Shown: piece by piece, positions 12,001 to 51,967 of the stretch
How the letters are laid out: every line of letters starts with the position of its first letter
Position numbering within the stretch: the stretch's first letter is position 1
Assembly: GCF_964204865.1 (NCBI RefSeq)
Contig: NC_135250.1
Coordinates: forward strand, 11,036,001-11,100,000
Origin: Styela clava
Lineage: Eukaryota; Chordata; Ascidiacea; Stolidobranchia; Styelidae
Length of the DNA stretch: 64,000 nucleotides
Reading direction: 5' to 3'
The notes under the pieces: model-generated
Databases searched by the model: none
What the model saw: only the letters and a program-made list of their open reading frames with translations
What the model was told of the DNA's origin: nothing
Program-made: the position numbers and the translations under genes

Positions 12001-15000
12001 ACTTTGAATGGAAATATTTGTGATGCATAGAAAGGAGGGAATATAGAATTTCGAAATATATGCAAATATAAAAATATATTGAAAAAAGCATGGGAATCAG
12101 TTATCCGTTCTTATATGGTTTAGAACAGTGGTTCTTAAAGTATGGGTCGCGGAAGGTTTAAAAATGGGTCGCGACAAGGTCGTCAATCTAAGAGGAGAAG
12201 GACGAATTTTCAGCTTTCCCAATGTTTCAATTTAGCTTCTAAACTCTGGTATTTAAAAATAATGAAATATAAAATTTCATTCACGGGAAGAACTGTCTTG
12301 AGCTCATTGTTACATCACAATTCTGATATGCCAGTCACGTGTATTATTTTTATGGTATCAGTAACCATGCACGTCGCTTGTCGTTGTGTTTACCGCGTGG
12401 AATGTCGTCTTAGTGGATTAAAATAACCAAAAATGGGTGTCTTTTTGGTAATGTAAATTGTAATAGACGACGCAATGTAAAAGCTCGCTTCTCGACATTG
12501 GATTATTCAATATCTAGCGAAAATGTGACTTCATCTCGAGGCACCATTTACTGCGAACGAAGCAGTGTGTGCACATTTGATGAGTAAAAAGTTGTATATT
12601 GCGAGAGATACCGAAGGCCAGCTAGGATGTCGTGTTTGCGACGGACAGCGGACGCCTTTTCTGCTACAATTCGCGACAAGGCACTTATATATAGGATATT
12701 TGGCACTGACGGTTATCAAAACTAAGCTCGCAATTGCCTCGATACCCGTGACAACTTGCGTATTGCGTTAAGTAAAATAGAGCTGTGTATTGAAGATATA
12801 ATGAAAAGGAAATTTCAGTTTCATCAATCTCACTGAGTCAATGGACTGTTCCTAATAAATAGTTGTCTGTATTTGAGTCAAACTGTACTAACATTAAAAA
12901 CACATTTTGCGTCATTTAGGATTGGGTCGCGAGTATTCATAAAACTCAGATTTGGGTCGCGCTCGAAAAAGTTTAAGAACCACTGGTTTAGAACTACAAT
13001 TAACTATCATCTTAGGTAGTGCTTTCGATTCTAATGTACGTGGTCAGTTTGGAGCAACGCCAAGCTTATGTGAAAATTGCTCAGGAATCGTAAGATTCGT
13101 AACAATCTTAATAGTAACATACAGAAATTGAGGCAACATTACATGCTTTACTGTTTGTTTGAACACTCAATTTTGTATCGTTAATAGTCAAACTTTTTTG
13201 CGCTCAAATTTTTGCTCCAATACTGACAAATCCTAAATTTTTAATAAATAATAATTTGATTTTGTGTTTTGTCCAGGTTAACAGAAAATATGACGAAGTG
13301 TTGAACATGGTTAGAAACGCAAAATTGGTCGGTCAATCGATCATCGCGTACTTGCAACAAAAAGGATATCCTGAAGTTGCATTACATTTCGTTAAAGATG
13401 AGAAAACCAGATTTACTTTGGCGCTGGAGTGTGGTGATATCGAGGTATGGGGTATGATCTTATATTACTTTTTATTTGAGGTGTATGAGAATTCTCAGTT
13501 ATGGAAATACATCAACAGACTGTTCGAAAGTTATTTTCGATATTACTTGTAAAAGAAAAGTGGGGCGCTGCCCTACTTGATGAAACTTTAGAATTAAATA
13601 TACCAGCATTTCAAGGTAAAATCTCATCCCCACTCCTTATCCAGGCTATGATAATGGACAATGCAGAACCACCTTAAAGATTCTGCTTTTTTCAAACTAT
13701 GGTAGCCCCTTGAAGTTGAAGTACCTTGAAGTGACTGCTTGTACCGAGCCTTATTCAGTGCAAGTGCTTATCAGTGTATGGAATAAACAATTTTTACTAT
13801 TTCATATAAATATTTTCTTTCGGGTTTCAGGTTGCTCTTGCTGCTGCAAAAGCTCTCGATGACAAGCAATGTTGGGAAGCTCTTGGTGAAGTCGCTCTTG
13901 CTCAAGGGAACCATCAGGTCGTGGAAATGGCTTATCAGAGAACCAAGAATTTTGACAAGCTTTCTTTTCTTTATCTGCTAACTGGAAACTTGGAGAAATT
14001 GAGAAAAATGATGAAAATTGGTAAGATTAATTAATAAGTTAAAGGTCTTGCTGTCATAGATCATAGATGGGGAACCAACCTGATTTGTAAATATGGCCAT
14101 GCTGAGTGCAAGTACCCCGAACTCGAGTGATCCAAGTCTGGAGATGAGTTTGAAATCAAGACAGTCACTGATCTATGTCTCACTGACGATGAGTCCATGA
14201 TAAGTCTGAGTAATTTCATTGAGTTGACTCGAGTTACTTCGAATCTTCGATAAATGGTGAGTCTAGTCGATGACTCAAGCCCCCCTAACCTCCCACCCAA
14301 CACTGATATGTGGCACAAACGTTTTCGGGTAATTTTAAAGAAGGCCCCACGAAAGTTTGATTTGTGAATGATGTTTGTAGAAACTAAAATATTCCTTCTG
14401 AACACACAAATTGTACCTATATTTTACTTAAGTCTAAACAAGTCTGCTGATGGCATATTTGAAAACCTTCTAACTGAAAACAAATAATATAATTCTGTGA
14501 TGAATCAGATTTTCATATCGTTTTCTGGTTGTCACCTCTCACCTAAATTAGAATATGGACAGCACGATCCCCTGTACAATCACAGAATAAATATAAAAAT
14601 TTCTTTTACTTCAACTTCAGCTGAAATTCGCAAAGATACATCTGGGCATTACCAGGCTGCATTGTATCTTGGAGATGTGTCCGAGCGTGTGAAAATCCTA
14701 CGCTCGTGTGGACAAATTCCGCTCGCATATCTGACCGCTGCCACTCATGGAATGGAGCAGGAAGCTGAACAACTCAAAGAACAATTTGAGGAAGATCAGA
14801 GAGTGCCTGAGATTCCAACCAATGCTGAGTTACTTCAACCACCTCCACCTATCTCTCAATTTGAGGAGAATTGGCCATTGCTAACTGTCAGCAAAGGTGT
14901 GTTTGGTATTGTACTTATTTTATTCAAAAAAGTGGAGAATTATAGTTGTTCACAGCTAAATTTCATGTTTCTATAAAGCAAATGTTGCTCCATGTGCTCC

Positions 15001-18000
15001 AAATTACATGCTCAAATTTCCGAAACACGTTATCTCTAAAATCACATTTAATTTGGGTTGGTAATAACGGATGGGACAGGTTCCTTTCCAAAAAATAGTA
15101 GCTCACTATATATCAGTGACCAGAGCTAGTCTGGAGTGATTTGTCTCCTTCACTTACCTTTTGCCTTACTATTGTTTTCTTTTGTCCATTTCTCCATCAG
15201 GATTCTTTGAGGGATCAATGGCTGGTCACGGTAAGACAGGAGCATTGGCTGCTGATATGGATGCTGATATTGATACTGGTGGATGGGGTGATGATGCTGA
15301 TATTATTCTGGATGAGGTAATCAATTGTGAATTTTTCATCAGTTTGTTAGTTCCTTCATTTTTCTTTCAGGAACTTTGCTAATCTAAGCTAATATTGACC
15401 AGAAATCTGGTATATGGTCCTATTAATTAACAGACAAGTGTTTGTAACTAGTGCAGAAATTCATCTACTGATATTGTAAATTTTCCCATCAACACTGGGA
15501 TCTGATTTATTTGCATGCTTTGTCTGGTTTTCTGTTCTGAAATGGCTTTCTGACATAGGCTGGGAATCGCTAGTGTTCAATCTTATCTAAACTAGTGAGA
15601 AAACAAACCCATTGTTTGTCGAGGTTTTCGAAGTTCTGAAAAAAATTGTTCTTACTTCGTATTTACCGACCAACAGACTAATCAATTTCAAATTTTCAGT
15701 AGTTACTTGGGAGAATAATGCTTCTAAAATATTTAAAAAAATTTGGAAGTCTTATGGGCTAATATTTCACTCCAAGTTTTACTTTGTTTAGAATTCATTT
15801 CGGTCAAATTCCTATAACTAGAATAGAATATTAGGCTTTGCCACAGATTTGGTGTCCACATACTAGAGCATTCCTCTTCTATTTTAACCAATTCGAATCT
15901 TAAATCGACTTTATTAATAATATTATTTTCAGGATGGTGCAATTGTAGAAGATTATGGTGATGCTTTAGATGGAGATGAAGATGGTGGTGGAGAGGGTGG
16001 AGGAGGAGGTTGGGATGTTGATGATGATGACCTGGAGCTTCCTGCTGATCTAGAGTTGCCAGATATTCCTGCTTCTGAAGGAGGAGAAGGATATTTTGTT
16101 CCTCCAACTAAAGGTAAGGAAGGTAGAGTTGAATTGGAAGACTCGCAAAGTAATTTGAATGTTTGTGTTCACAGTAAATATGTGCCGATGTTAGAAAGAG
16201 TTGTATTGAATACAGTTTCTCACAAAGAATGTGATATTGAGGAACAGCGTTTTTGGCATCATTGCTTTAAATTGTTTTTCTCTGAAATGAGTATGCCAGT
16301 TATAAGATATAAACTATCACAGTGAATTGTGATTCCTGAATGCACTTCAGATATATTCATTGATTCCCAAACTTTTGAAACTTACGACTCATTTACCTTT
16401 GTAATTTGACATTCTGATAGATTTCAATTCATTTTTGTTCAGGAACTTCTCAAGCCCAAGTTTGGTGTAATAATTCTCAACTTCCCGTTGACCATATCTT
16501 GGCTGGTTCTTTCGATACTGCTTTCAGGGTATGTCTCGTTTATGATATATTCGTCATTTTGCTAAAGTTTTGATTGGGTTTCTCTGCTCACAATTCAAGT
16601 GTTTTGACCACTTAGGTTAAAACAATCTTAGTTTTAGCTAAGTCTCAAACAAGTAACTCAGGTTGCCTAAAATCATCAACTTTGTCAGGGTGAGACTTTC
16701 TTTGTGAGGAGGACTTGCGATTAACATGCACCTCTGTGCTATGTCTCTTTGGTTTTGTTGAAGAATTCTCAGCATCATGATTAATTTGAAATGAAATTGA
16801 CACAGTAATGTAATCCTAATTCTGATCGATTATGAGTATTACTATCCAGAATTATTACTGCATATTCGTTTTACTGAATTTCTAGTAGATCTTGAATTTA
16901 AACCTATGTTTTGTTTAATTCAGCTTTTGCATGACCAAGTTGGAGTTGTAAATTTTGAACCATACAAGACACTCTTTATGCGAACCTATGCTCGTTCTCG
17001 TTCCACATACATCGGCATTCCTTCCATCCCATCTGTGTTTAGTTATCCTCACAGAAATTGGCGAGAAGCAGGGGGAAAGGCTGGACTGCCTCTCAATGGA
17101 ACGAAACTTGCGGATTTAGCCAGTTGGTTACAAGATGCCTATAAATTGACAACCGCGGGGAAATTTGAAGAAGCCATCAAGAAGTTCAGATATATTTTGC
17201 TTTCTGTTCCATTGTTAGTTGTTGACAACAAACAGGAGATAAGTGAGGTGAGCATTTGTTTGTGAAGATTTCCTTGAAGCTAAATTAAATGTATTTATTC
17301 TCTTAAAATGGTCATTATGTATTAATCAAATTTATACAAAATGCAACCCAGATTGTTTGGAACATATTCTAAAAAGAACATAATTGAAAAATTTGGGTAC
17401 ATTCCAAAAACGCACATGTTCATTACATTTTATTAATTTTCATAGAAGTAATTAAGAAATTTATAAATTCTGTTTTTGGGATTACTCTGTTTGGGCAAAT
17501 TGATCATCATCTGAAAATTTCTATCTAAGACCAAGAATGTATAATTGAAGTTTAGCATGCAGAAAGGATTGTTTGTATTATGGATTTCGTTAAATTGAAA
17601 ATACACATGTAAGCATGATTTATGTCAATTTCTGTCATGGTTTGTTCGTTTATAGGCTCAACAACTGATCACCATTTGTCGAGAATATATTGTTGGTTTA
17701 ACCATGGAACAACGAAGAAAAGAGCTTCCAAAAGAAAGCTTAGATGAGCAGAAAAGAAATTGTGAAATGGCTGCGTATCTCACACATTGTCAATGGCAAC
17801 CAGTACATCTAATGTTAGCTCTGAGAACAGCTCAGAATCTGTTCTTCAAATTAAAGAATTATAAGGTCAGTAGATAGACTCGCTTATTACTTATCGATCT
17901 TTAGATCGGTAAGTATGTTGATAGGTATTTGTCTGTCTCTCTGTTAGATGCACGCGATATCTCAAGAAGGCGTGATTGAATCTGCATGTGCATTCATCAT

Positions 18001-36472: not shown

Positions 36473-38828
36473 ATGTCTTCCATTCTTGTGAAGAATTTGC
36501 CGCCCAATATCAATGGAGACAAGCTAGAAATTTATTTCCAGAAACAAAAAAATGGAGGTGGAGATGTAAACGAAGTTCGAATGATTGAAAATGGATCACA
36601 AGCCATTGTAGTTTTTGAGGAGAAACAAAGTGAGCATAAATATATACATTTGTATTTTTTCATCTTTCTTGATAAAATACCAATATTGCATATGGTATTC
36701 TTATCCCCTGTTTGACTAGTTCATCCGAAATTACGTCACTCACTTCGATGCTTTCACTTCACATTTACACAAAAAAGTGTAACAAAAAAGCAGAAATGCG
36801 GTCATCAACTCTATACTATTCACAGTGGAGCGCTTTTGGGCAGCAGTTTGTATATATTTGGCGAGACTTTTTATGCCAGTGTGAGTTCTTAGTGATATGA
36901 TTTTGGATGATGAAATCTGATGCTCTTGGGAAAACTGAATTTTTGGTCCCATTCCCATTTCCTGTGTATAGATTTTTATTTCATTCATTTTTTTCCCTAG
37001 TTGCTTCAAAAATTGTGCAAAGAGAACATACATTGCTTGGAAAAAGAATTGAAGTGGAACAATTTGAACAACCGAAAAAGGTTCACAAGAGTATAACTCT
37101 TTCTGTTTATTTATGGCAACATGTTTCCAATGATTAATAAACCAATTGTGCAAACTCTTTACATTGTTATGTAACTGACAAGGGGTCTAGTGTAGTTCAG
37201 TACCACGAGTACTTCCAGTTGGCATAGCATAACGAATTTTGCATATGTTATACCTAACCCCCACATGACTATGCCATCCAAAAATTACTCTGCTACGATG
37301 TCTACAATCACCCGAGATGGCATCTGCGCCACCGATGAACGAACTCGCGAATGGCGATGATCTCTCTCATATCGTGATCGTTGCGACCAGAAAACGAAAG
37401 AAAAAGCTTTCTTGATTTCGGGTGATCATCTGTGCGTTTTGGACGACCATCCGTATACTTTGGGGGGCTTTATTACGATAGTGTGTCATAGTAATGACGT
37501 AATATTTTGGTAGCGTAGTCAGGTGGGGGTTATATTGACATATGCGAAAATAGTTGAGCCAGGCCAACTAGAAGTGGTGTGGTACTAAACTATACCAGAC
37601 CCTAAAATGTTCATTTTATAATTCTGGTACTGTATCCATTCTAGAATAGTTGAAATGTTGGCTTGTACCAATTATAAGTAAATATTACTAGCATGTGGAG
37701 AGGAACGTTAATGAGATAGCTTAATTTTATGTTGTCTGCATATTTTAGATATAAGCCAAGGTGCACTCATGAAAAAGTGTTATTTCTTTTGTTTTAGGAT
37801 TTAGAAAATGTTTGTTCATCATTGCAATATATTCTCATTATTTATATTGCAAAATATCTGTTTTCTGTAATAAAATATTTAATTATATTCAAAATTTTAA
37901 TAAAACGTGAAGAGAATCTTGTAATATAACACTGATCGGAAGTTTTTTGTTTTCTTCTCAGCTTTTTCTCAAAGTTGAAGCTATATTGAGTTCGACTACC
38001 GTAGAATTCCTTGGAGAATATAAAATCGAGTTGTTGACTCAACATCATAAGAATACTGATTGTCAAAAATTGCAGAACGGACAAATGTTAATCAAAACAG
38101 GTAAATTGAGTTTTTCAATGATGATGAACATACTTCGTACTTAGATCTTGAATAAATGGAAATACCATACATCATATATTCAGCTATTTATTTTTTTATA
38201 TTATGACATAGTTTTAGATGTAACATTGCAACTCATGCTGCTCTAATGTGGAACTACTGGAAAATAATAGTTCTGATACCAATGCTAACTACAAGCTAGT
38301 TGACCAGTATGAGCAGCCAACCAGTAGGAGACTCAATTGTAGTTTCATCATGCTTGATGTGCCTATAATCCTAATTTCATATCAGCATTGTTATGTGACA
38401 CAAAAAAATTTATGTTGAGATGACCACGATAATAATTTATGTTAGATACCTAATTTCTGAATATCTTTCAAATCCATTTTCTGCATTTCCTTAGAATAAA
38501 ATAATCCACAATTTTGTTTGGAATAATTTTCGAGCTGACGTTTAGCCATCCTTTCAAGTTTTAAAAACAGTCATGGTTAGGTAATGTTTTACCAATTTAC
38601 TGGTAGTTCTTTCGCATTAAGATTCTCTGGAAGAGTTACTACAGTTTAAAAAATTATTGGAGAATTTGTTAAAAAAATCCAAGACACTACATTTGAGTCG
38701 ATCGTCATCATCACCTGTTAAAATGCAGCAAACAAATTATGGTTTTGAGGAACAACCTGTATTTCATCCACCAAATATAGAAAGGAGAACATCAGTGAAC
38801 TCATGGGATCCTGTATCACAATTTTCTG
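36473..38828 (+). other. Deltex-type gene: RRM-like domain and adjoining region (exons 1-4)
   Basis: Residues 1-79 form an RRM-like fold: SILVKNLPPNI (RNP2-like), GSQAIVVFEE (RNP1-like), HTLLGKRIEVEQF (last strand). Exon 3 and early exon 4 (about residues 80-145: KVEAILSSTTVEFL, YKIELLTQ, TELLQFKKLLENLLKK) may form another small alpha/beta or KH-like module, as in DTX3L and PARP14. This second assignment is tentative. Exon 4 ends in a Ser-rich, probably disordered linker. Confidence 0.7.
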
Positions 38829-41800
38829 GTGATTATTCATATTTTTTTGTTTAATGTTATTTTTTAATAAAAGAAGATTTGCAAACAGGATTTATATATC
38901 AGAAAAGCAGTCGTGTATTCATAACTCGAATATAGATTTTTTATAGGTTTTAGATCACCTTTTTCTAATTATTCAGGGCATTCTAGTCAGTGTTGATATT
39001 AAAATTCCAAAAAATATTAAACGTTTCCTTTTATACACTCAAATTTTTGACATTTTTGCATTGCATATTGTTGATGTTTACATGCTTCCTAAATGTAAAA
39101 TGAAAGTGTCATTAATGCATGATGTTTAGTTTAAATAATATTTCGGATATCAAGTTGAAAATTTTGTAAGGTATCTAGTCAACTGCAGTTTATAAGTCAT
39201 TATTTCATTAGAAATAAAAGAATCGAATAAGTAGTATTCTAATAAATAATTTGTTCAATACATTTCTCTACATCCAATTTTTAGTTATATAAATTCTACA
39301 TTGCGAAGTTGCGTAAATTTACACAAATTTTTACAAATTAGATAATGATGATTTAGTCTCTGTAGCTCTTGGCATTTTAATGGCTTGTCGTAGCTTCACT
39401 CAGAAATCAATCTCCTTATTTTCTGACTGAGTGAGTGCCTGTGACATTGCTTTGAGTGAATTTTCTTGAAAAATATGCTCTCAAAATTAAAAAATTTTGT
39501 GTCCGAAGGTTCTACACGAGATCCACTTCTTCCTGAACTACGGGATCCACTTCTTCCTGAATGGTCAGATAGTCCTTTACCGCAGCCACAAGATGGAAAC
39601 ATGTTTTGGCAGAATGTGGATGTCGATGGCCAGGCAGTGATCAAAGGAAAATTTTGTTTTCCAGAAGGAGAGATTTTTGTAAGAGACAATACTTTCTCAA
39701 AATAATACTTTCTCAAAATAATCTAGTATATGATATGAATAACAATGAAATTTATATTGATCCAAGTAAATTGTACAAATAAAATAGCATACGAATAATA
39801 AATGAATACAAAAAATTTACTTTTCTGAATATGAAGAAAAGCCAAAAAGATGGCTTAATCATATGACAAACTACGGTGTCTTGTCCAATCACCGTTCCAT
39901 GTTAGGCATGATAGGATAGGATAGGATTTACATATTTATCCCGGGGGAGAGGAAAGCCGATAAGACGGCTTATCCATATGGCGAACCACGGCCTCTCGTC
40001 CGGTTACCATTCCAAGTCGGGTATGGGATTAGTTTTTACTGTATTGTTTGTTTTCGGAAGCATGGACTTGGTGGTGGAGGAAGCCGTAACCGACCAGCGG
40101 TCACGTGAACCACCCAATGACGGCGAGGAGTCCAGCAATCCTCTCGCACATAACCATCCCTGCATGGGATTCGAACCTGCGAACCCACGCAGAGTAATTA
40201 GAGGTGCAGTGACGAGCGTATTCCTAACGCTTAGCCCGTTGAGCCACACCGCCGCGCCCGGTGGCTCAGTATTTTCATATTCCAGTAATTTCGTGAACCA
40301 TCCTACAGCGGCGAGAAGTGTAGCAATTCTCTCTCACATAATTATTCCCTACAGGATCCGGATTTGAGACCTCATGTAGGGTAATTAGAGGTGCGATGGT
40401 GAGTGTCCTAGCGCTTATCATGATGCACCAATCAGGTATTTGGCAAATCCTTGAAATATTTTGATAATTTTTTCTTCCTCTTTTTACAGATATTCTCAGA
40501 TGTTATTAGATATCCATCATATGACTGCATTGTCAGGCTTCCTGCTAGTTCTCGTGGAGAAATCATTAGAGAAATGTTGAAAATTGCATTTGAAGAAAGA
40601 AAACTGTTCTATGTAAGAAAGGATGTTACAGGGTCTGGATTTGTTGTACAGTCTGCTTATGACATTTTTGGAAGGTTGGTGTTATTGACATTGACATGCT
40701 TCTTTGGCTCGGCAGTGTGGTGCATCGTTCTAATCGTTAGGTATATGCTTGCCACATCACCTCTGGATACCCTGCGTGGGTTCGCAGGTTCGAGACCTGC
40801 GGGGGATGATTATGTGGGAGAGGATTGCTGGACTCCTTCGTCGTCTTAATGTCTTTCTATTCCCCCGGGATAAATATGCAAATCCTATCTTATTTAAAGT
40901 TGACGAATTGAAAAAAAAATTTGTGAATTAGACCTGAATCAAATATTCTGCTTTATGAACATAATTGTAAATAATATTTTTGAATGAGGAATAGAACATT
41001 CTTAGGTGAGTCATGTTAAGCAAAAAGCCATAGAACTCAATGCAAAAAAATTAAAATAAAAGGATAATGTGTTGATACTTCAATTGTTCAAAATAGGTAA
41101 TAATTTTTCGAATTCAGCTATTCTAAATTGTCTTGAATTTGAAATAGTGAATCAAATTAATTTCTTATCGATTCGAATATTCTATTCATTTTGGATATCC
41201 CTGATTCTAATCTTTTCTAACAGTTTCAAAATATAGTATGTAGTTTGTGCTGAAATAATTTATTATAATCATTTTAATCACCATAATCTTTTGAACTATG
41301 TTATTAAACTTTGCATCTTTTGTCAAAATACCTTTTTTTGGATGTTGGTTTTGTACTAGTTTGTATAAAAAAAGATAAAATTACTATATGGAATCTGCTG
41401 TGACTAAGTATGCAATCTCGTCCTAAATTTAAAAAAAAGCACAGGTGCGCATGATTATGATATATTTTGAGTGATCAGCCCCAACCCTGTCATTCTTCTA
41501 TTTTGTACTGATATTAGTGAATTCTACAACATTTACCATATAAATTAGACTACACAAGACCGTAAATAATTGACTTTGGTATATTGTACTGAAAGCCACT
41601 TTTGTTTGCCTGGCGATATTCTCTTTATTTGTGTTTAGGTAAATATTAAAAAGTAGGCAAACAGAGTAATTGGAATAAACTATGTATCAACAGAAATTGC
41701 GTAATCATTTCATATAACGCTAATTGGAACTAGTGTTCTCCTAAATTTTTAAATATGTTATAAATAAGTTTAGGTTTGATATCTTGTTGCTATAGAGATT

Positions 41801-44800
41801 CAAATAAATCTCTCTTAATATAGCAAGCAGTTCAAGGGTTTAAAGACAAGTTTAGGGTTTAGGCTATAATCATAGTGTGAAGCAATATTTACCAAAGTTT
41901 TTCTATATAAAGTTTAAAAGTTGAAAATTAAAAATATACGTTTTCTTCAATTTCTCAAAACTGATTTTTCAAATTCGTCTCTTTTGGGTTAAAAGTCTCT
42001 CATACATACATAAATAAAATCACTCAAATATTTCAAAATTGCTTTTGTTGATAATGTCCAGCAATAACAAATTAATAATAAATACATTACTATTATAGAA
42101 AAATTTTCGGATTATGGAATTTTGTTCTTATTGCTTCAGAATATTGATTCCTCATTCACAAAATTTTTATGCCTGTTTGTATCATAGTATATATAGCGTA
42201 GAAATATTTTTTCACTGCGTTTTCTACACTAACTATTTTTGTTATATTTTTCAGTCGAAATACAGGAGATGAAGTTGATTTGTCACATAAACTCGATGAA
42301 ATTAAATCACGTTTAGTTGATTTGAAGATCGCTCTTCCAAGCCCCCCAATAACAAGACCACGAGAAAGTATGTCACTGATTTTATGCTCTATTATACTTG
42401 ACCTAACATGTACTACAACTTTTTACAGCAGAAATGTAAAGGTATTTAGGATAAGATTTTGATATTTATAAGGAGGATGCGACCGGTTGGACCGAAAGCT
42501 GATGCGACCAGTTGGTCATATGGTGAACCACACTCTCTAGTTGAGTTAACAGTCCATGTCGGGTATAGAAATAGTTATCCAGATTTTGTTTCAGATGCAT
42601 GGACTTGATGGTGGAGGAAGCCGTCACCATGTTACGGCGGCGGGCAATCCAGTTTTTTGTTCTCACAGATAAACTCCAGGAATCTTAGATATAAGATTAG
42701 CTCTGCAACCTGAATTTTATAATAGTTTTTACTTCCAAATAATTATCGCTTTCATATTTCACTACTTCAGCTGCCCCCGCCGTTTTCTCCACATATCCAG
42801 CCGAAACCGGACATGAAATGATGGATACTTCTCCACCAATACATCAAGTTAAGGTAAACATACTATTGTTGGTCAAAATTCTATTTTGTGAAGGAATTAA
42901 TGTCTCATGGCAATGGACTCTTGTGAAATTGTTTTTTCAGAGGAAGTTCAAAATTTAGTTGAACTCAAAACCTTTTGACTTTTTTAGTCTTTCAACTGAC
43001 AAAGTATGATAATGCCAATGTGGTAGGGTACATGAATAGCTTTACCGATTAGGAATGAGAGACATGATAATTGTAATATATTGAATGTTGAAATTAACAA
43101 AATAATGCTTCCATGGTTCTCCTCCTGCCCATGGTTTGAAGCAACATCCACTAAAGTACAAAACAATATTATCTCAATATGCAATCCTATTTTCTCTTTT
43201 CTATTATTTTCTGTTTAGTTTGCAAGAATTACTAGCAATTCCATTATAGTTATTGAGCAGTCTCACTTTTGTTCTACAGAAGGTTACTCCAAAGCCGAAA
43301 GGACCATTTCCTCAGCCAGATGGCTTAAAAATCAATTCTGAACTTCATGAGAAAAGTTTATCTGGATTTCCACTTTGCGAGGCTCTGCATATGTACTTCA
43401 GATTTCCTGGTGGCATAATCAATACAAATGTGAGTGCAGTTATATTAAGGCAATACTGTAATGATATCAGCAAATTTTTGTAAATTTTATCATCAACCAG
43501 GCTAAATATTGTATTGCGATATTATTTTAGCCTTTTAATTTAGCCTAGACTTGATACTTGGTTGATTTTGCTGGGTGTTACGTAATAAGTATATACCACT
43601 TATGCGATATTTTAGATTTCATGGCTGTATTGTTGGGTATATGTCAGATGTCAAATGAAAAAAACACGTCACATAATAATTCTGACTTTTTGTGAATAGC
43701 TTTTCATCCTCTATTATATCTCATTCGAACCCTGGGGCGGTTTCAAGTCCAAATCATCTGATAATAATGTTTTCTATTTTGTCAGGGTGGGCAAATCATA
43801 CAATATGTTTCCTACAATCGAACTGCATGTTTACCAGCAAACGCTGAAGGTAGAAAATTATCTGCAATGATATTAGAAGCTGCAAATCAAAGAAAATTAT
43901 TTGTTGTGGCATTGAAAGCTGGAATATACATGATTAGAACAAAAGTTCCTCTACTTACTAGGTAAGATTAAATTCTTCATATCACCGTATATGATTTATT
44001 GTTATCTAATGATTTTTGCATCTCGCTAAGCGGTTTCTATTTCTCTCATGCTATTTTGAGGTTTTTATTAGAATCAGCTGTCTTCAAAGTAAACTTTTAG
44101 TTTTCTATTCAATTTTGCTTTGCATGGCAAGATTGCAAAGCAAAGATAGACTTATATTTCGCTGTGGTATATATGGTATAACTGGATAATTATTACACTT
44201 CCCTTGACAATTTAAGTCAATGTATCCTTCAATTAATTTAACCATTGTGCTAATTGAGCTTAAAATATTTTCAAGAGCAAACTATTCACATTGATTTTAA
44301 TGCAACTTTTTGTTCTAATGTTCGATCAGTTTATAGTTGGGTCCGTGCGCCATTTATTAACCCATTGCTACTGGGGCTCATGGATAAACGTCTCTTTCTT
44401 GTTATGCTATAGTTCTATAGTTAATTATGCAGTAAGTAGTACTATGATACATTCCAAAGCTAATACCATCATTGCCTCTTTCAGTTCTCATTTGATTATT
44501 TAGTCTAACAACTCTGTTAAGCATATGTGGGTTCGCAAGTTCAAATTCTGTGAAAGATAAGTACCTATATGTGTAAGAGGGTTGCTGGACTCTTCACCGA
44601 CATAGGGTAGTTCACTCTGATAGCAGCTGCTCGGTCACAACTTTCTCCAAGAAAATTTCATGCATTTGAAACAAATAATGCTAGCTATTCCCATACAGGA
44701 TGTGACATGGTTGTCATATGATTAAGTCCTCCTACCGACTTTTCTCTCCCCTAGGATAAATATGAAAATCCTACTCTTAACTCCTTATTTTTAATCTATT

Positions 44801-47800
44801 TTTTTTATATTACAGTGATGACTACCCAAATGAAGACTACTTAGAGCAGTTGTATCGAGCTCTATTAAAACTTGGCATCTCCGAACCATCAGTTCCACCT
44901 CCTCTTCCCGCTACATCCGAAGCCCATTATGAAGAAAACTCAAGCGATGAGTCTGATCAAGAGAGTAAAGAAACTTTACGTAAAGGAGGACCCTTTCCTC
45001 AACCTCAAAATGGAGTAATACGAATGGAAAGAGAAAATAGAAATCTCAAAAATTTTGGAAACTGTGGAACGATTAATATTTATTTTCGTTTTGCTGGAGG
45101 AAAAATGAAAATTGAGGTAGCCTATTGTGTTATTATCTTGTTTTGTTTTAGAAAGTAGTGTTGCACGTACCCTTGGTAGAGCAAAGATCTGAAGCCCGGG
45201 CCCGACCCGAACCGAAATTCGGGCCAGGTCGGGCCTGAAATGTCAATCATTACGTTCGGGTTGGGTCGGGTCAGGCTTCTCTATCGCTGACTTTTTTCGA
45301 AAATGAGGCGCTTCGGCCGTGTTTTGGCCATGAGAGAATGTGGTCTGCAAAAAAAACAGAAGTTGACTCATCAACACCACACATACTGTACTAAACTCTT
45401 GCAATGACAATTTAATGAACTCCTGAATAAAATATGAAATTTCGAGTTTGCTCCGGGTTCGGGCCTGCAAATCCAGTTAATTAGTCGCGCTCGGGTCAGG
45501 TTTAATACCCACGGGCCTGGGTCGGGCCGGGCTGGAATTTTAGAGCCCGATCTTACCTCTAACCCTTGGGTCTTGGGTGGCCTTTTTTTTTATTCTTGTA
45601 CTTGTTTTTTGCTCCGAGCAAGGCCCTGTACACACAGCCATGGTTATCTAGCGATATATAAGGAGCCGGTTTTATCTGAGAGGACCGCAATCTTTTAGGT
45701 TCATCATTGCCTACCCAATTTATTACACTCTGTATGAGGTGGGGGGCAGCTTTCCCTAGAATGAATGATATAAATATTTTATCCTATCAATTACTCTTGT
45801 GTACTGTGTTATGTACGTTGATGTTATGTAGTGTCATTCATGGTATGTAATATTGATCATTTTTTATTGCAACATATACAAATGAATTATACTTTTTCTT
45901 GGAATATATGATAAAACATGATAAAGCATTTCGATTGTAGAACTGATATAAATCTAGCCTAGTTGCAAGTCATTATTTTAACTGACTAAATTATGTTCTC
46001 GACTTCATATATTCTAGGGGTCGAAACCTTCAAAATCATTTGAAGTTCAATACAGTCAAATGTATATTGTTGCTGCATTGCCTGATAGCGAGAATGGTCT
46101 TCGTATGGCAATCATGTTGCGCACTGCGTTTAATGACAGGAAATTATTTCGTATTGAAAGAAGAGAAGGTGAACCATCTTTCCGAGCGCGACCATGCGTA
46201 ACACTTTTGAGAGCGTAAGTTGATTATGGAAATTTTCAGTTAACCATATAACTACGGTAGTTATGATTTAGTTTAGATATAGCATAGATCTATGCCATCA
46301 TGTACCGATATTTGCTATATTGGATCTCTGTCTAGGAGACCCTCGTTCTCAGTCGTTCTGTCTGTATGTCTGTGTATCTGTCTGTCTGTGTGTCAACTGT
46401 AGAGTCTTAACGGCCGGACCAATCTGTATGGAATTTCTAACGTGGGTTATGCTGTCACACTAGTAATGTGCGTTTCACCAAAAGTTCTAATTGATGTTTC
46501 GTTTCCTTGGCAACAGCGAAAAACACAGATCATTGAAAATACTCCCATTTTCTCATAAATTTTTGCCATTCCCTCGTCAACCAAGTCGAATATTAAAATT
46601 CCTAGACTGCTACCCGTCGCGAAAGAAAATACTCTTTCGAATAGCCGTCTTTCATCTTGGAGTCCATAAACTGTGGCAGCAGTATAAATTTTAGTGAACA
46701 TGTTTTAATTATTAGACACAGCATAACTTTCGCCCATGGATACCGATGAGGCACACAGCGGTCAAAATGAACTGCCAGTTTTGGTACAATTTTTTTGTTA
46801 CAGTGGCGTCTATATATTACCCGTTAGTAATCCTGAAATGATGCGGGCCACAAGCAATGGCGGAGATCCATACTGGGTGCCTAGCGGCTTGTGTATATGT
46901 GTATATATAAGCACACAAAGAAGATTGTGTTGATTGTTGGAGTGTATGACATGTACTCTGAAAAAGTATGAAGACAGACAGGCGAAAGTTTAAATAAATA
47001 AAGTAGACAACCGATACAATAATTGCTATTTGACTAATTTGTGTAATCTTCAATATATAGAGATGAATATTCGAGAACAGATTATTTGGCACAACTCAAA
47101 AAGGAGTTGAAAAGTTTGGGAATCAGAGAACCAAGTTCAGAAGCTGTTGCTTCCCTTTCAATACCAAAATCAACGATTCCACAAGGTGGTGCTCTTCCAC
47201 CTGATTGGGCTGCATCGTCATCTGCACAAGCTTTACCTGATACAAGTAAGTACGAGATTTGGGATTTTGAATAGCAATATCAATGTTCTAACGGTTGAAA
47301 CGTTAGACATACCTGTGTTTTGCGCCAAGTCACAGTGACCTCACCGAAGGTGTGATAATTTGAATAGACCAGGGGTGTACAACAGGCGGCTCGGTGGCTG
47401 CATGCAACCAAACAAGCCATTTAGGGGGCCCTTGACAACACTCAGCATTTTCCCCATTGATAATAAAAATCATAATGCGACAGTTTATTTTTAAAAGGCG
47501 CTGCTCATATGGGCAAATATGAATAATATTTTTTTGCTCTTGTCGATGCCTTAAATCTTTCACCGTTTTGCTCGCTGCCTTTATTACTGTAATTTGTTGT
47601 GTCTATGAAAATACAAAATTTTTTAAGTTGCCTAGTGATGTCTGAGGTTGGTTATATGTACCGCCGACAAAAAATGTTTCACACTACTGGGATAAATCAT
47701 GCCGAACTGGAAATGTTCCAGTTTTTAAAACAGTAGCTCATCATGTATCTTTAGATATCAGTATTTGCTTATACAGGGCTTTGTACAGAGCGAAACATGT

Positions 47801-50800
47801 GAATAAATCTCATAAAAAAACGTAGCAAGTGATTTATTAACCATTCGATGATATTTTATTGCTCAGAACAAGCCGCTACACAAGAGCCACTTGCATCCAA
47901 AGTTGGGTTCATGTCCCTAAACTCGAGTTGCAAGTCAAGTGAATGCACAGGTCATATCTCTTGAATCGAGTCTGAGTCTCAGTAAATATAACACATCGAA
48001 TTTCACGTCGAGTTTAATCAAATAAGAGTTGAAATAGTTTTTAGTATTTTAAAAAACAAAGTAGGATTTAGTTATACATTGATAACATTTTTCTCGCATC
48101 AACTCTGTCTATTTTGAGTTATCAGTGCAATATGCTAGTGAATTAATATTTTTTCAATAATTAACATTCAATTTCCTCGTTGCATACAATGTATTTATAA
48201 AGTAGACGGCAGGTGTATTGTATACATGATGGTAGGTAGATATTAAGCAAACTTTCAACAGAGCATTTTGCAGGGTTGATAAGCTTAAATTATATAATAA
48301 CTGGTCAGTTATGATATCCACTACCAATACCTAACATTCGCCTGACTGATCCGGTCATACTCGACATGGACTTAGTAAAAGACATAGCTTCTGTTATGAC
48401 AATGATGCTCTAAATCTATCCTCTATCCTAGGCTAGGATGAATATAAAAAAAATTTACTCCTCGTTTGTTTTCTCACATTCTGCATTTGGATAAGATCTC
48501 ATAAGACCAATACTGGAAATACAGGTTGTCTAATTCAGTGGTTCTCAAACTTCTTAAGCCTTTTTGTAATTTGTAAGGTGTCTCGCGCCCCACCTTAAGA
48601 ATAACTAGCTAACAATAAGCTACGCCTACAAATAACAGATAGTAAGGCGAAAGTATGTTTTAACCAAAAAAAAAACATGTTAAAAATAATGAAATAAATG
48701 AAAAGTGTTGAAATGTAAATATCCAAAATGAGGCGAGTAAGATCAATTGAATTAGCTTCACAAGTCCTCGAAAAATTGTCTACGTCACCCTCCCTTTCCT
48801 TGTGAGCGTCCCCCACCTTTTGAGAACCACTGGTTTACTTCTATGTTTTATTTCAGTGACTGCACAACCGCAGCTCGCGCCAGCATTTAGACCTCCTGGT
48901 GCAAGACCAAAAACTCAAAAATTGATCCCAAATTATGTTGATCCAATGAATTCACAACTTCGTCTGGCCCGGAGACCTCAAACCTTTGAGCAATATTCAC
49001 GAAGTATGCCTAGGCAAAAACAAATGAAAGGTATGTAATGTTAAGGTCAGATGTGAAAAATTATAAATATGCTATTAGTATAAGCCAAGACGATAACTGA
49101 TGTATTATTGTGTTATTGAATTATAGTTAGTTAGTTGTAATGCTTCCGATTTTAAGTGTGTGTAAAATTTAAACTAACTTTTCAATGTAATCGATGAAAC
49201 ATCATCTTGTTAGATTATTCAAACATGGGAATTAATTGTGAAACAAATCTGAAATTTCCTATTTAAATATTGAATGGTTTATTGCCAGGGGAGTCTATTT
49301 GAATGCAAGCAATCAAGATAGCAGATAACTGCTTAGTCATATGGAAAACCTTGTCCTCTCATCCAGTTTGGTGTAGGAATAGTTACCCAGATATATGTTT
49401 CACAAATATGGACTTGGTGTTGCTGGTATCTGTAACCGACCAGTAGTCTTGTGAGCCACTCTACAATGACGAGGAATGAAACCAGCAACCCTCTCATACC
49501 CTTATCCCACAATGCTCCAGCCGTTGAGCCATAAAAAATCTCCAGTTTTTGCATGCTTTTCATGTCTTAAATTGCTATACTGTCCTGTACTGAGCGAAAC
49601 AAACATTTTTTGGACCAATACCAAATAAAATGAGTGAACATAACATAGCAATATATATTTAATATTTCTGCAATTATAGGACCTCGTGTACTACAGCATA
49701 ATGATTTACAAGCAGATGATAAGAAAGAGGATGAAGAGGAAGATAAGTGTGCTATATGTTTGGCTCCAATAAGTGCACTACCAACCAAAAAACTTTCATG
49801 CAAACACATATTTCATGCAAACTGTGTTGATACGGCCATAAAAGTAAGATCGTTGCACAGTTTGCCTACTTGTTTTCATTCTATTTTTCGCCTTCTTTTA
49901 ACAATCTCAAGATACGCTTGTATACCCAACCTGACAGAGGGACATGTCTCGCCATGTGATTGAGTAATCCTATCACCCTTTGAAGAGTTCATTTTTCTGA
50001 TCCTCTTACACATGAATATCTGCCATAGATCTGAACCTGTCTTCATTCGAACTTTTCGTTCATTCCATTTTTTTTTGTTTGTTTATTCTGTGAGAATTTT
50101 TCACTATTCTGTATTTGTAATGATACCTTGTTGTTGAAAAACCATGTAGGCCAATATTATATACTGTAATTCCAGTGGTACAAAAATTCAAACCAAACTT
50201 CAATTCCTGAATTACCGTATTTAAATATCTGTTTGTAAAAGCAACAGTTAAGGTGATACGATTTTAGTCCAGCTAATTTGTACGAGTCAAATCAAATAGT
50301 TGATAAAAACTGATTTGAAATTCATTCAGAAAATAATTATTTCAAACCATATTCTTTTTCAGACAAATCCCAAATGCCCAATGTGCAACCAACCGCTAGG
50401 TAATTCTCCTCAGCGTCCTCGGCATCAAACACCACAGTTTTCTCCATTGCCTACTCAATATGCTGGAAGAGGTTCTAGATTGCTATTTGGTTCACTTAAC
50501 AGCCAACCACGTCAGTATTCGCCAAATTCCCAGCCAAGAAATGCTTTTGGAAATCAACCTACCAATGGTAAAATGACAGATCACACTGATCCAAGGTCAC
50601 TACCTGGATATACTGGAAGTGGTACAATTGTGATTAGATATTCATTTCCATCTGGAATTCAACAGGTTAATATACTTTTGTTATCTAATGAGTTTGTGCA
50701 TGACCAAATACTTATTCCTCTTCTATGTTTTTTCATTGGTGGACCCGTATACATATAATAGAAGAATGTTGAAGTGTTTCAAGAGTCTTATATGCGCACT

Positions 50801-51967
50801 AACACAAATATAGAGTTGAATTATGCAGGTCTTAAGAAGTCTGACTTTAGTCAGATGAAATATTATTGGTATTATTGTGCAGCAAGTCTCCTGAATCATT
50901 CAGTTTTATTAATATACTTTATTTGTTTTATCGGCAGATATAGTGTAATGAGTTATACAGAGTGTTCATACAGCGTTCGAATGTCTTAAAACAAACCTGG
51001 TTAAGACGTTTTGAGAACTGGCTTTATAGCGAAATTGTAACAGGACTTCATGAAGATCCTGCATATTTGTACCATGTAAAGCTATGTTTCTCAACCTCTT
51101 TTATGGAAAAACAAACAACTTTTGTGGAGCTTCATCTCCCTTTCTATATACCTAGAATTTCCGTCCAATGGTTATAATAAATCGTAGTGGCTAGATATAC
51201 ACAAGCAGCAATATTTAATGCGAAACTTGGGACATAAAAGCATGTTCTTTTTTCTTTTGTTGGTTATTCCATGAAATTTTACTTTTATAATTTCAGAACT
51301 GTCATCCTTCACCTGGATCTCAATATGGATCTACAAATCGTGAAGCGTATTTGCCTGATAATCGAGAAGGTCGCGATCTTTTAAAATTACTCAGAAGAGC
51401 ATTTGATGCTGGACTTACTTTTACTATTGGTCAATCGCAATCTTCGGGCGAAGACAATCGAATTGTTTGGAATGGAATTCCGCATAAAACCAATATAAAT
51501 GGAGGAAAGCATAGGTATGTCTGTCTATTTTATCAGGTGTCTGATCTCCTAATTTTGGAGACTTTTTCTTCATTTTTGACTAAAATATGTATTTTCGATT
51601 TTTTCCTTATAATTTAAATCATATTTTGTAGATTAAATCACAAAAATTAATGTTTACAGCTTAGTATACAAATTTGTAGTAATATATTAAAATCTAATCA
51701 TAAACAAATGGTACAATAAAGGCCGCAACGTAATGGAAATCAGGATGTAACCTAAGTATTTTAGTTTCTATGTATAACAATAGGGGTAGTTAAGTTTATT
51801 TTTCCTTAGCCAGTAAATCATGACTGTATAAAAAAAAATATGTAATTATGTTATGCAATTATTCATGTTGAATAAGTTCCTCACTGTTTTTATTTAGCTA
51901 CGGATATCCAGATCCAAACTACTTAATTGAACTCAGACAGACTTTACAATTCATGGGAATCCAGTAA
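36473..51967 (+). CDS. Deltex-family E3 ubiquitin ligase with four DTC repeats (RRM - DTC x3 - RING - DTC)
   Basis: 18 exons: 36473-36629, 37001-37080, 37962-38100, 38634-38828, 39509-39678, 40490-40674, 42255-42367, 42771-42853, 43280-43429, 43786-43961, 44816-45116, 46018-46214, 47061-47245, 48857-49030, 49680-49843, 50363-50665, 51297-51514, 51898-51967 (TAA). Phases match throughout; 3060 nt give 1019 aa. Deltex proteins transfer ubiquitin through RING plus DTC; the DTC binds ADP-ribose/NAD+. An N-terminal RRM-like domain and no WWE resembles vertebrate DTX3L. The three extra DTC-like units before the RING are not in any Deltex I know. The start was set at the ATG opening the RRM; an in-frame ATG 39 nt upstream (36434) is possible. 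The exon 4 acceptor (GGAAG|AG) is the least certain junction, chosen to keep frame (TELLQFKKLLEN). A TTG-AAG-type duplicate pairing with DTX3L function is inference. Confidence 0.88.
37184..37603. mobile_element. MITE in intron 2 of the Deltex-type gene
   Basis: Ends are inverted: GGGTCTAGTGTAGTTCAGTA then CTTCCAGTTGGC on the left, and GGCCAACTAGAAGT then TACTAAACTATACCAGACCC on the right. The duplicated intron at 30226-30690 lacks it. The family is not identified. Confidence 0.75.
39352..39468 (+). repeat. Third copy of the ~120-bp repeat seen in the COPA intron
   Basis: It matches 9308-9555: GTAGCTCTTGGCATTT, then GACTGAGTGAGTGCCTGTGA. It lies about 40 bp before exon 5 of the Deltex-type gene. 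Confidence 0.65.
39917..40268 (-). repeat. SINE-A, near full-length copy
   Basis: Read on the minus strand it starts GGGCGCGGCGGTGTGGCTCA, has GCTAAGCGTTAGGAATACGC, and the B-box GGTTCGCAGGTTCGAATCCC. It continues with GGATTGCTGGACTCC and ends at ATAAATATGTAAATCC. It is tRNA-derived by its boxes. A further minus-strand partial copy follows at 40290-40435, and a tail fragment precedes it at 39840-39900. All lie in intron 5. Confidence 0.85.
40697..40895 (+). repeat. SINE-A, plus-strand copy in intron 6
   Basis: GGCTCGGCAGTGTGGTGCAT head, TGGGTTCGCAGGTTCGAGAC B-box, GAGGATTGCTGGACTCC, and tail CCCGGGATAAATATGCAAAT. It is inverted relative to the copy at 39917-40268. Confidence 0.8.
42480..42665 (-). 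repeat. SINE-A fragment in intron 7
   Basis: It contains the family core on the minus strand (GACGGCTTCCTCCACCATCA, AGTCCATGCATCTGAAACAA, tail region). It lacks the tRNA-like head. Confidence 0.65.
43280..44881 (+). other. Degenerate DTC repeat 2 (exons 9-11a)
   Basis: Residues about 383-504: GPFPQPDG opening, LHMYFRFPGGIIN strand, NRTACLPANAEGRKLSAM, an ANQRKLFVV strand, then YPNEDYLEQLYRALLKLGI, matching canonical GYPDxxYLxxLxxxLxxxGI. The His-containing pocket motif is missing. Exon 11 continues with an acidic Ser/Glu linker (EENSSDESDQESKE) into repeat 3. Confidence 0.85.
44523..44785 (+). repeat. SINE-A copy in intron 10, diverged
   Basis: GTGGGTTCGCAAGTTCAAAT, GAGGGTTGCTGGACTCTTC, CATGCATTTGAAACAAATAA and tail CCTAGGATAAATATGAAAAT identify the family. 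Confidence 0.7.
45177..45561. mobile_element. GC-rich hAT-like MITE in intron 11
   Basis: 385 bp with inverted ends TAGAGCAAAGATC and GATCTTACCTCTA. It is flanked by a perfect 8-bp duplication ACCCTTGG (45169-45176 and 45562-45569). Subterminal GCCCGGGCCCGACCC-type repeats occur at both ends, making it far richer in GC than its surroundings. No coding remnant seen. Confidence 0.88.
45611..45760 (-). repeat. SINE-B copy in intron 11
   Basis: Minus-strand copy: tail GCTCGGAGCAAAAAACAA, core CCCCACCTCATACAGAGTG and TGATGAACC. Compare 10741-10975. Confidence 0.65.
47370..47689. mobile_element. hAT-like MITE nested in a SINE-B (intron 13)
   Basis: Ends CAGGGGTGTACAACAGGCGG and TGTTTCACACTACTG are imperfect inverted repeats. 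The flanking 8-mers GAATAGAC and GGATAAAT are a diverged duplication; SINE-B has GGATAGGC at this point. SINE-B sequence continues on both sides (47336-47369 and 47690-47805). Confidence 0.65.
48536..48832. mobile_element. hAT-like MITE in intron 13, abutting exon 14
   Basis: 297 bp; ends CAGTGGTTCTCAAACTTC and CCTTTTGAGAACCACTG. Flanking 8-mers GTCTAATT and GTTTACTT are related. The ends resemble the COPA-intron element at 12126-12985. It lies only 24 bp from the exon 14 acceptor and therefore supplies sequence close to that splice site. Confidence 0.82.
49310..49545 (-). repeat. SINE-A copy in intron 14
   Basis: Minus-strand family core (TGGCTCAACGGCTGGAGCAT, GGGTTGCTGGTTTC, TACAGATACCAGCAACACCA) with tail toward 49310. 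Strongly diverged. Confidence 0.6.
49680..51967 (+). other. RING finger and canonical DTC domain (exons 15-18)
   Basis: The RING (residues about 792-831) has CAIC, LSCKHIFHANC and CPMC in C3H2C3 order, with an acidic run (KKEDEEED) just before it. A Gln/Ser/Pro-rich linker of about 50 residues follows. The DTC (about 887-1019) reads NQPTNGKM, TIVIRYSFPSGIQ, HPSPGSQYGSTNREAYLPDN, EGRDLLKLLRRAFDAGLTF, IVWNGIPHKT, GYPDPNYL and ends FMGIQ. Most Deltex proteins, as I recall, have His-His where this one has Pro-His. Confidence 0.92.

Follow-up and report, generated by a model that had tools for sequence, protein, structure and literature searches.

What becomes of a catalytic domain when a gene multiplies it is the question raised by a Deltex-type locus of Styela clava, which lies at positions 36473–51967 on the + strand of the DNA analysed here (the window; 64,000 nucleotides of contig NC_135250.1, positions 11,036,001 to 11,100,000). 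To our knowledge, the DTC domain is the only domain that allows a RING E3 ligase to put ubiquitin from an E2 directly onto ADP-ribose or nucleic acid 3′ ends. Splicing of the window gave a gene of 18 exons and 17 introns, all GT..AG, with precisely the span and exon count proposed in the first-pass annotation, an earlier reading of the same letters. Its spliced frame of 1023 codons is uninterrupted and ends in a stop codon at 51965–51967. The protein comprises, in this order, an RRM of the PARP14/DTX3L type, three DTC-like units, a RING-H2 domain and a C-terminal DTC, and no DTC in it has the known catalytic dyad. By sequence it is a Deltex-derived protein that, with the dyad absent, is not to be filed as an ADP-ribose-ubiquitylating Deltex. 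The reading that we favour, at about even confidence, is that of a DTX3L-like styelid RING ubiquitin ligase in which the DTC would have been duplicated within the gene as three-exon cassettes and its catalytic use lost, giving a non-catalytic DTC reader accompanied by three scaffold units. The features on which the argument draws are the following.

36473–36629 and 37001–37080, + strand: exons 1–2, with the RRM at residues 2–74 (Pfam RRM_PARP14_3, 2.7e-18; splice model).
37962–38100 and 38622–38828, + strand: exons 3–4, by position the putative slot of the first KH-like domain of DTX3L (D2/KHL1), then linker; no relevant Pfam domain.
39574–42342, + strand: DTC-like unit 1, about residues 217–342, in exons 5–7 (39509–39678, 40490–40674, 42255–42367).
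42771–42853, + strand: exon 8, linker between units 1 and 2 (splice model).
43280–44894, + strand: DTC-like unit 2, about residues 384–513, in exons 9–10 (43280–43429, 43786–43961) and the start of exon 11.
44985–47136, + strand: DTC-like unit 3, about residues 544–678, in exons 11–13 (44816–45116, 46018–46214, 47061–47245).
48857–49030, + strand: exon 14, linker (splice model).
49742–50389, + strand: RING-H2 (C3H2C3), residues 794–836, in exons 15–16 (49680–49843, 50363–50665; Pfam zf-RING_2, 7.9e-9, at full model length).
50543–51967, + strand: unit 4, the C-terminal DTC, residues 888–1023 (Pfam match at 890–1022) plus stop, in exons 16–18 (50363–50665, 51297–51514, 51898–51967).
51480–51482, + strand: codon of Pro990, at the place of the catalytic His (DTX2 H582, DTX3L H707) in the alignments.
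51899–51901, + strand: codon of Tyr1002, the aligned equivalent of the ligand-binding residue DTX3L Y719 or DTX2 H594, kept.
51941–51943, + strand: codon of Thr1016, at the place of the catalytic Glu (DTX2 E608, DTX3L E733) in the alignments.

In DTX2 and DTX3L, the pairs His582–Glu608 and His707–Glu733 are proposed to activate the acceptor hydroxyl (PMC7615817, PMC11460948), and the dyad is described as strictly conserved among DTX proteins (PMC7615817). The H707A substitution in DTX3L abolishes ubiquitylation of DNA and E733A considerably impairs it (PMC11460948), and mutation of either dyad residue in DTX2 impairs ubiquitylation of NAD+ (PMC7615817). When unit 4 is aligned with the solved DTX2 and DTX3L chains, these two places are occupied by Pro990 and Thr1016. 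The same Pro and Thr are present in two homologues, a Styela clava database protein (P0001) and a more distant protein (P0012), and His and Glu are both present in 10/10 other proteins of the alignment. Retained in unit 4 are Tyr1002, HKT and GYPDPN; the His of its HKT corresponds to the second His of 'HHKT' in canonical proteins (DTX2 H583 and DTX3L H708, numbers derived from chain lengths). The first-pass annotation held that only the last unit keeps the His-containing pocket; the letters HKT are indeed there, but the catalytic His is Pro990, and the idea of a catalytic pocket kept in the last DTC falls with the loss of both dyad members. Its suggestion that the extra copies are non-catalytic agrees with the alignment, in which units 1–3 are without the HKT motif and have, relative to unit 4, a deletion after the HKT place (seven residues in units 2 and 3, three in unit 1). 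Recognition of ADP-ribose-like ligands by these copies, which it also suggested, is unlikely, as HKT and the residues after it are missing; for unit 4, such recognition is possible from the residues that it retains.

It is improbable that unit 4 is still catalytic, with H991 or another group activating the hydroxyl and the protein acting as a functional ubiquitin ligase for ADP-ribose or nucleic acids that carries accessory domains. No other part of the protein is as well conserved as unit 4, which retains the pocket residues just named; however, both dyad residues are altered in the window, in P0001 and in P0012, and canonical DTX proteins also have the neighbouring His (IHHKT), yet DNA ubiquitylation is already abolished when only the first His is mutated (PMC11460948).

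The presence of four DTC units is indicated by two kinds of comparison. The Pfam DTC model matched the whole window protein with an E-value of 5.3e-72 in four stretches (counted up to E 10), and P0001 contained three stretches at the stricter limit of E 0.1; each of the six other proteins scanned against Pfam had a single DTC. A profile check of the extra units, which the first-pass annotation had called for, came out clearly for units 2 and 3, which when cut out alone matched Pfam DTC at 3.9e-9 and 7.3e-10 (unit 4, 6.4e-52), whereas unit 1 alone reached only 0.11 (13.1 bits, below the 25-bit cut-off) and yet exceeded its shuffled controls. In this second comparison, each unit was compared with a profile of seven canonical DTCs, with 100 column shuffles per unit as control, and the scores were 27.2, 65.0, 73.1 and 295.9 for units 1 to 4 (best shuffle 17.2, 15.3, 13.9 and 13.8, respectively), which excludes a chance motif. 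The profile probabilities were 97.8% for unit 2 and 98.3% for unit 3. For unit 1 they were 43% against the DTC profile and 27% against unit 4, but rose to 96.7% and 97.8% against units 2 and 3, so by profile comparison unit 1 is weak against Pfam yet clearly related to units 2 and 3. The Pfam matches and profiles bear out the earlier description of a Deltex-type tunicate gene with an N-terminal RRM and three additional DTC-like units ahead of the RING.

The four units also share their intron positions. Each is interrupted by a phase 0 intron past the FPxG strand and a phase 2 intron ahead of the last helix, and the DTC of the canonical DTX3L-like gene of this genome is apparently split at the same two places; in the DTX1/2/4-like gene, the aligned pieces continue through both. 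In the tree, units 1, 2 and 3 each pair with their P0012 counterpart (support 100/100, 97/94 and 91/95), so the array of units predates the split of the two lineages. A single clade of units 1–4 was not rejected in the approximately unbiased (AU) test (p-AU 0.206), and units 1–3 may therefore descend either from this gene's own unit 4 or from a branch that arose earlier.

P0001 and P0012 are 44%, 55% and 61% identical in units 1, 2 and 3, 55% in the RING and 62% in unit 4; in the five linkers the values are 25, 12, 47, 26 and 24%. Judged by these identities, units 2 and 3 are constrained to the level of the RING, and unit 1 less so. Such values bear on the alternative that the extra units are decaying, functionless duplicates carried along with a RING-DTC core, which we regard as quite improbable. 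The low Pfam score of unit 1 and the missing HKT motif in units 1–3 would fit decay, as would the 4/126 residues of unit 1 that differ between the window and P0001, per residue no fewer than in several linkers. Against this, units 2 and 3 match the RING in conservation while most linkers do not, reading frames and splice sites are intact, and 0/135 residues of unit 3 differ between the window and P0001 compared with 9/46 in one linker. The remaining differences between these two sequences are 2/130 in unit 2, 0/136 in unit 4 and 1/51 in the RING. The divergent linker precedes unit 4 (residues 842–887, window 50405–50542), and its differences reflect either quick linker change or mixed populations under one species name.

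P0001 is Styela clava LOC120348513, annotated as 'uncharacterized protein' (1023 residues), and it matches the window protein end to end with 98% identity, 25/1023 residues differing and no gap. Because this database model agrees throughout, the exon model is independent of one reading. A possible additional exon at 47867 was dropped, as the frame runs on from exon 13 to 48857 when it is omitted, in agreement with P0001. P0012 is 941 residues long and 45% identical overall to the P0001-type protein; its 941 codons, free of introns, fill most of a contig of 3072 nucleotides, so the contig is probably cDNA. In one frame it carries the RING and, with matches to E 10 included, four stretches of DTC. 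Alignment of its N-terminus is poor (over the first 150 residues of P0001, 75 columns align, 17 of them identical), and an RRM is not recognisable in P0012, which fits a truncated 5′ end or divergence. The 8000 candidates sharing most words were scored in the protein search that gave P0001 and in that with a two-sequence profile, and 5113 in the search that gave P0012; the wider search with the two-sequence profile found the same two proteins only, among the 8000 candidates scored.

These homologues support one gene rather than two, since P0001 represents the whole joined frame and P0012 the stretch from unit 1 onward. That two adjacent genes were joined both by the first-pass annotation and by automatic annotation is very unlikely. 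The introns reach about 1.6 kb and there are long linkers around exons 4–5 and 13–15, where a boundary might lie, and P0012, with its first ∼115 residues poorly aligned and no recognisable RRM, says little on exons 1–4. However, P0012 crosses unit 1, units 2 and 3, the RING and unit 4 in a single 941-residue frame, and so covers the exon 13–15 junction well and the exon 4–5 junction weakly, and P0001 contains the full joined frame. A fusion of two genes is for the same reasons unlikely. An assembly artefact is unlikely as well: the P0001 and P0012 frames agree, and when the genome was searched with units 1 and 3, all matches to E 10 among the few candidates scored (4/4 and 3/3) fell within this gene.

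The loss of the His from unit 4 is common to a large DTC family elsewhere in the genome, which is not visible from one window. Searching the host genome (376.6 Mb) for DTC yielded 52 matches at exon level: two are unit 4 of this gene, three come from two canonical genes and the remaining 47 are further copies. Both canonical Deltex genes have an intact dyad: a DTX1/2/4-like gene (L003, C1:1357118–1360318, with matches at 1.357–1.359 Mb) and a DTX3L-like gene (L017, C19:4.654–4.664 Mb). Most of the 47 copies are located on C5:2.6–5.6 Mb, largely in one array, and further copies are found at C19:1.45–1.66 Mb, C6:18.69–18.71 Mb, C8:11.70 Mb, C9:18.207 Mb and C5:16.224 Mb. The loci of copies without the catalytic His are labelled L005–L016, L018–L020 and L031–L067. 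At the catalytic position in the middle DTC exon, 49 matches could be read, with Pro in 44, Ser in three and His in two (both canonical genes), and the 47/47 further copies are without the catalytic His. The Glu position, readable in the last exon of six copies, is Ala, Ser or Thr.

Many of these copies stand behind a BACK domain. In a list for which 150 of 499 BACK candidates were scored, and with no control for chance occurrence of BACK within 12 kb of a DTC, a BACK match was found upstream on the same strand within that distance for 31/47 copies and not for 16, at least one of which (on C8) has BTB and BACK in an upstream open reading frame. A DTC without the dyad therefore also occurs as a module beside ligase-adaptor domains. 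The copy at C5:3232622, whose DTC introns are in phases 0 and 2, splices to a 587-residue frame with BTB (2.1e-26), BACK (1.6e-24) and DTC (1.7e-23). From this frame and the positions of the other copies, BTB-BACK and DTC apparently form one protein, in a gene family of the KLHL-adaptor style.

For the loss of the His, a tree was calculated with the His column masked, units 1–3 left out and the Glu column unmasked. Unit 4 and the BTB-type DTCs fell on one side of a branch with support of 93/87, under the tool's star; a single loss of the catalytic His is favoured on this tree, but not shown. The middle DTC exon was then compared among 38 BTB-type copies on C5 (L009, L011, L018–L020 and 33 of L031–L067), and the ten columns after YLP were hypervariable relative to the rest. 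Parsimony changes, nonsynonymous to synonymous, were 104:13 after YLP and 140:75 elsewhere (Fisher p 9.3e-7), which corresponds to per-site ratios of 1.92 and 0.48. With the stretch shifted by two columns, pairwise comparison of 25 equal-length copies gave proportions of nonsynonymous and synonymous differences (pN/pS) of 0.278/0.076 there and 0.070/0.061 elsewhere. The stretch was picked after its variation had been seen, the tree comes from about 190 bases and gene conversion is possible. The excess of amino-acid changes may point to diversifying selection on recognition. The pocket of DTX3L adjoins an extended groove bordered by the residues immediately ahead of YLP (PMC11460948), and the post-YLP stretch may lie near this groove. 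A wider, tentative and on balance doubtful proposal is that in ascidians of this lineage a single loss deprived the DTC of its chemistry for ubiquitylating ADP-ribose and nucleic acids, and that the domain became a module for recognition that diversifies. It would serve as such in the RING ligase with four DTCs and in up to 47 BTB-BACK-DTC (CUL3 adaptor-like) proteins, a repertoire largely in tandem, in which positive selection would act on groove-adjacent residues, as in repertoires for host defence or self-recognition.

The protein was also compared with known Deltex types. Like human DTX3L (RRM, five KH-like domains, RING and DTC; domain order in PMC13224862), it has a PARP14-kind N-terminal RRM, a RING ahead of the C-terminal DTC and a Tyr at the Y719 position; no WWE domain is among its Pfam matches to E 10, and the AR motif before YLP (its meaning is given in PMC11460948) is absent from unit 4 when aligned against the DTX1 and DTX2 rows, as the insertion is from DTX3L. 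The DTC of DTX3L (3pg6) is the best solved relative of unit 4 (1.1e-36). In contrast to DTX3L, three DTC-like units take the place of the KH-like array: Pfam gave no KH match, and residues 80–150 could be one KH-like domain, whereas residues 217–678 are DTC-like instead. His707 and Glu733 are replaced by Pro and Thr, and the RING is of the H2 type by its CxH..FH..C sequence (closest solved structures, the Arkadia/RNF165 RINGs), whereas DTX3 and DTX3L have RING-HC according to PMC8424196. With DTX1, DTX2 and DTX4 (two WWE domains, RING-H2 and DTC), the protein shares RING-H2 and the C-terminal DTC, but it is without detected WWE, the AR motif and the catalytic dyad and has the extra DTC units. 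The canonical DTX3L-like gene of the genome (C19:4654001–4664000) also has an RRM, a RING-H2, unlike the RING-HC of human DTX3L, and a three-piece DTC, but only one DTC was found in the 10 kb read, with IHHKT, Glu and an intact dyad. The BTB-BACK-DTC genes, as assembled in the C5:3232622 example, share (I/F)PHKT and the same two DTC intron phases, and the six copies with the last exon read lack a Glu at the position of E608; there, BTB and BACK replace the RRM and RING, and the example has one DTC.

Elsewhere in the window, exon-like open reading frames at 13163–16322 (+ strand) resemble what we take to be coatomer subunit alpha, and scans of the window against Rfam and for tRNAs found nothing. 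Within an intron of the gene, 39915–40367 is an interspersed repeat, and translated stretches like 'LSRGRGKP..RLIHMANHGL' recur at loci elsewhere in the genome. P0001 had no match in NCBIfam.

The architecture, the homology of the four units, the loss of the dyad from unit 4, the missing HKT in units 1–3 and the constraint on units 2 and 3 are established. In the favoured reading, in which a non-catalytic DTC reader and scaffold units accompany the RING, the RING of this predicted ligase would still recruit E2∼ubiquitin, unit 4 would bind a ligand or partner through Tyr1002, HKT and GYPDPN with the hydroxyl not activated, and units 1–3, in the slot of the DTX3L KH-like array, would serve as a protein-binding or assembly scaffold. 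Given these three properties, the ligase would ubiquitylate ordinary lysines of bound substrates and form no ADP-ribose–ubiquitin or nucleic acid–ubiquitin esters. Loss of the dyad need not end the reader role of a DTC, since DTX2 E608R still reaches DNA damage sites while failing to restore the RNF114 recruitment that depends on ADP-ribose–ubiquitin (PMC13061329).

Several points weigh against this reading. The homologue evidence comes from two sources only; unit 1, with its lower conservation, may be degenerate; and the AlphaFold2 model (P0001 with P0012) has a mean predicted local distance difference test score (pLDDT) of 32 and a predicted template modelling score (pTM) of 0.23, so the fold of units 1–3 is unreadable. 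A second His, H991, stands next to Pro990 and could in principle take over. Instead of the 'linchpin' Arg (place and role in PMC7615817), the last RING Cys is followed by Asn in Styela and by Lys in P0012, so activity of the RING is not certain. There is also an unlikely alternative in which units 1–3 are mainly an oligomerisation or partner-docking array, like the KH-like D2 and D3 of DTX3L, and unit 4 is a ligand-free structural remnant that holds the RING. Units 1–3 do fill the array slot between the first KH-like domain and the RING, and in human DTX3L, D1–D2 mediate oligomerisation and D3 binds PARP9 (PMC10955461); this argument is one of position, and the pocket residues are still present in unit 4.

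The first-pass annotation knew of no described Deltex with this architecture, and our literature searches turned up none: no multi-DTC Deltex or BTB-DTC protein appeared in the titles and abstracts found, in a library without most subscription papers, and the Deltex passages of PMC2770060 and PMC10970066 do not mention one. The four-DTC protein, with the dyad lost, suggests that in this lineage a catalytic domain was converted to a module for recognition or scaffolding. A lineage that keeps and multiplies the DTC while dropping the dyad separates recognition from catalysis and provides natural separation-of-function variants. If the BTB-BACK-DTC copies are expressed as one protein class, they would constitute a ligase-adaptor family in which the DTC replaces Kelch and which might act in the immunity or allorecognition of ascidians.

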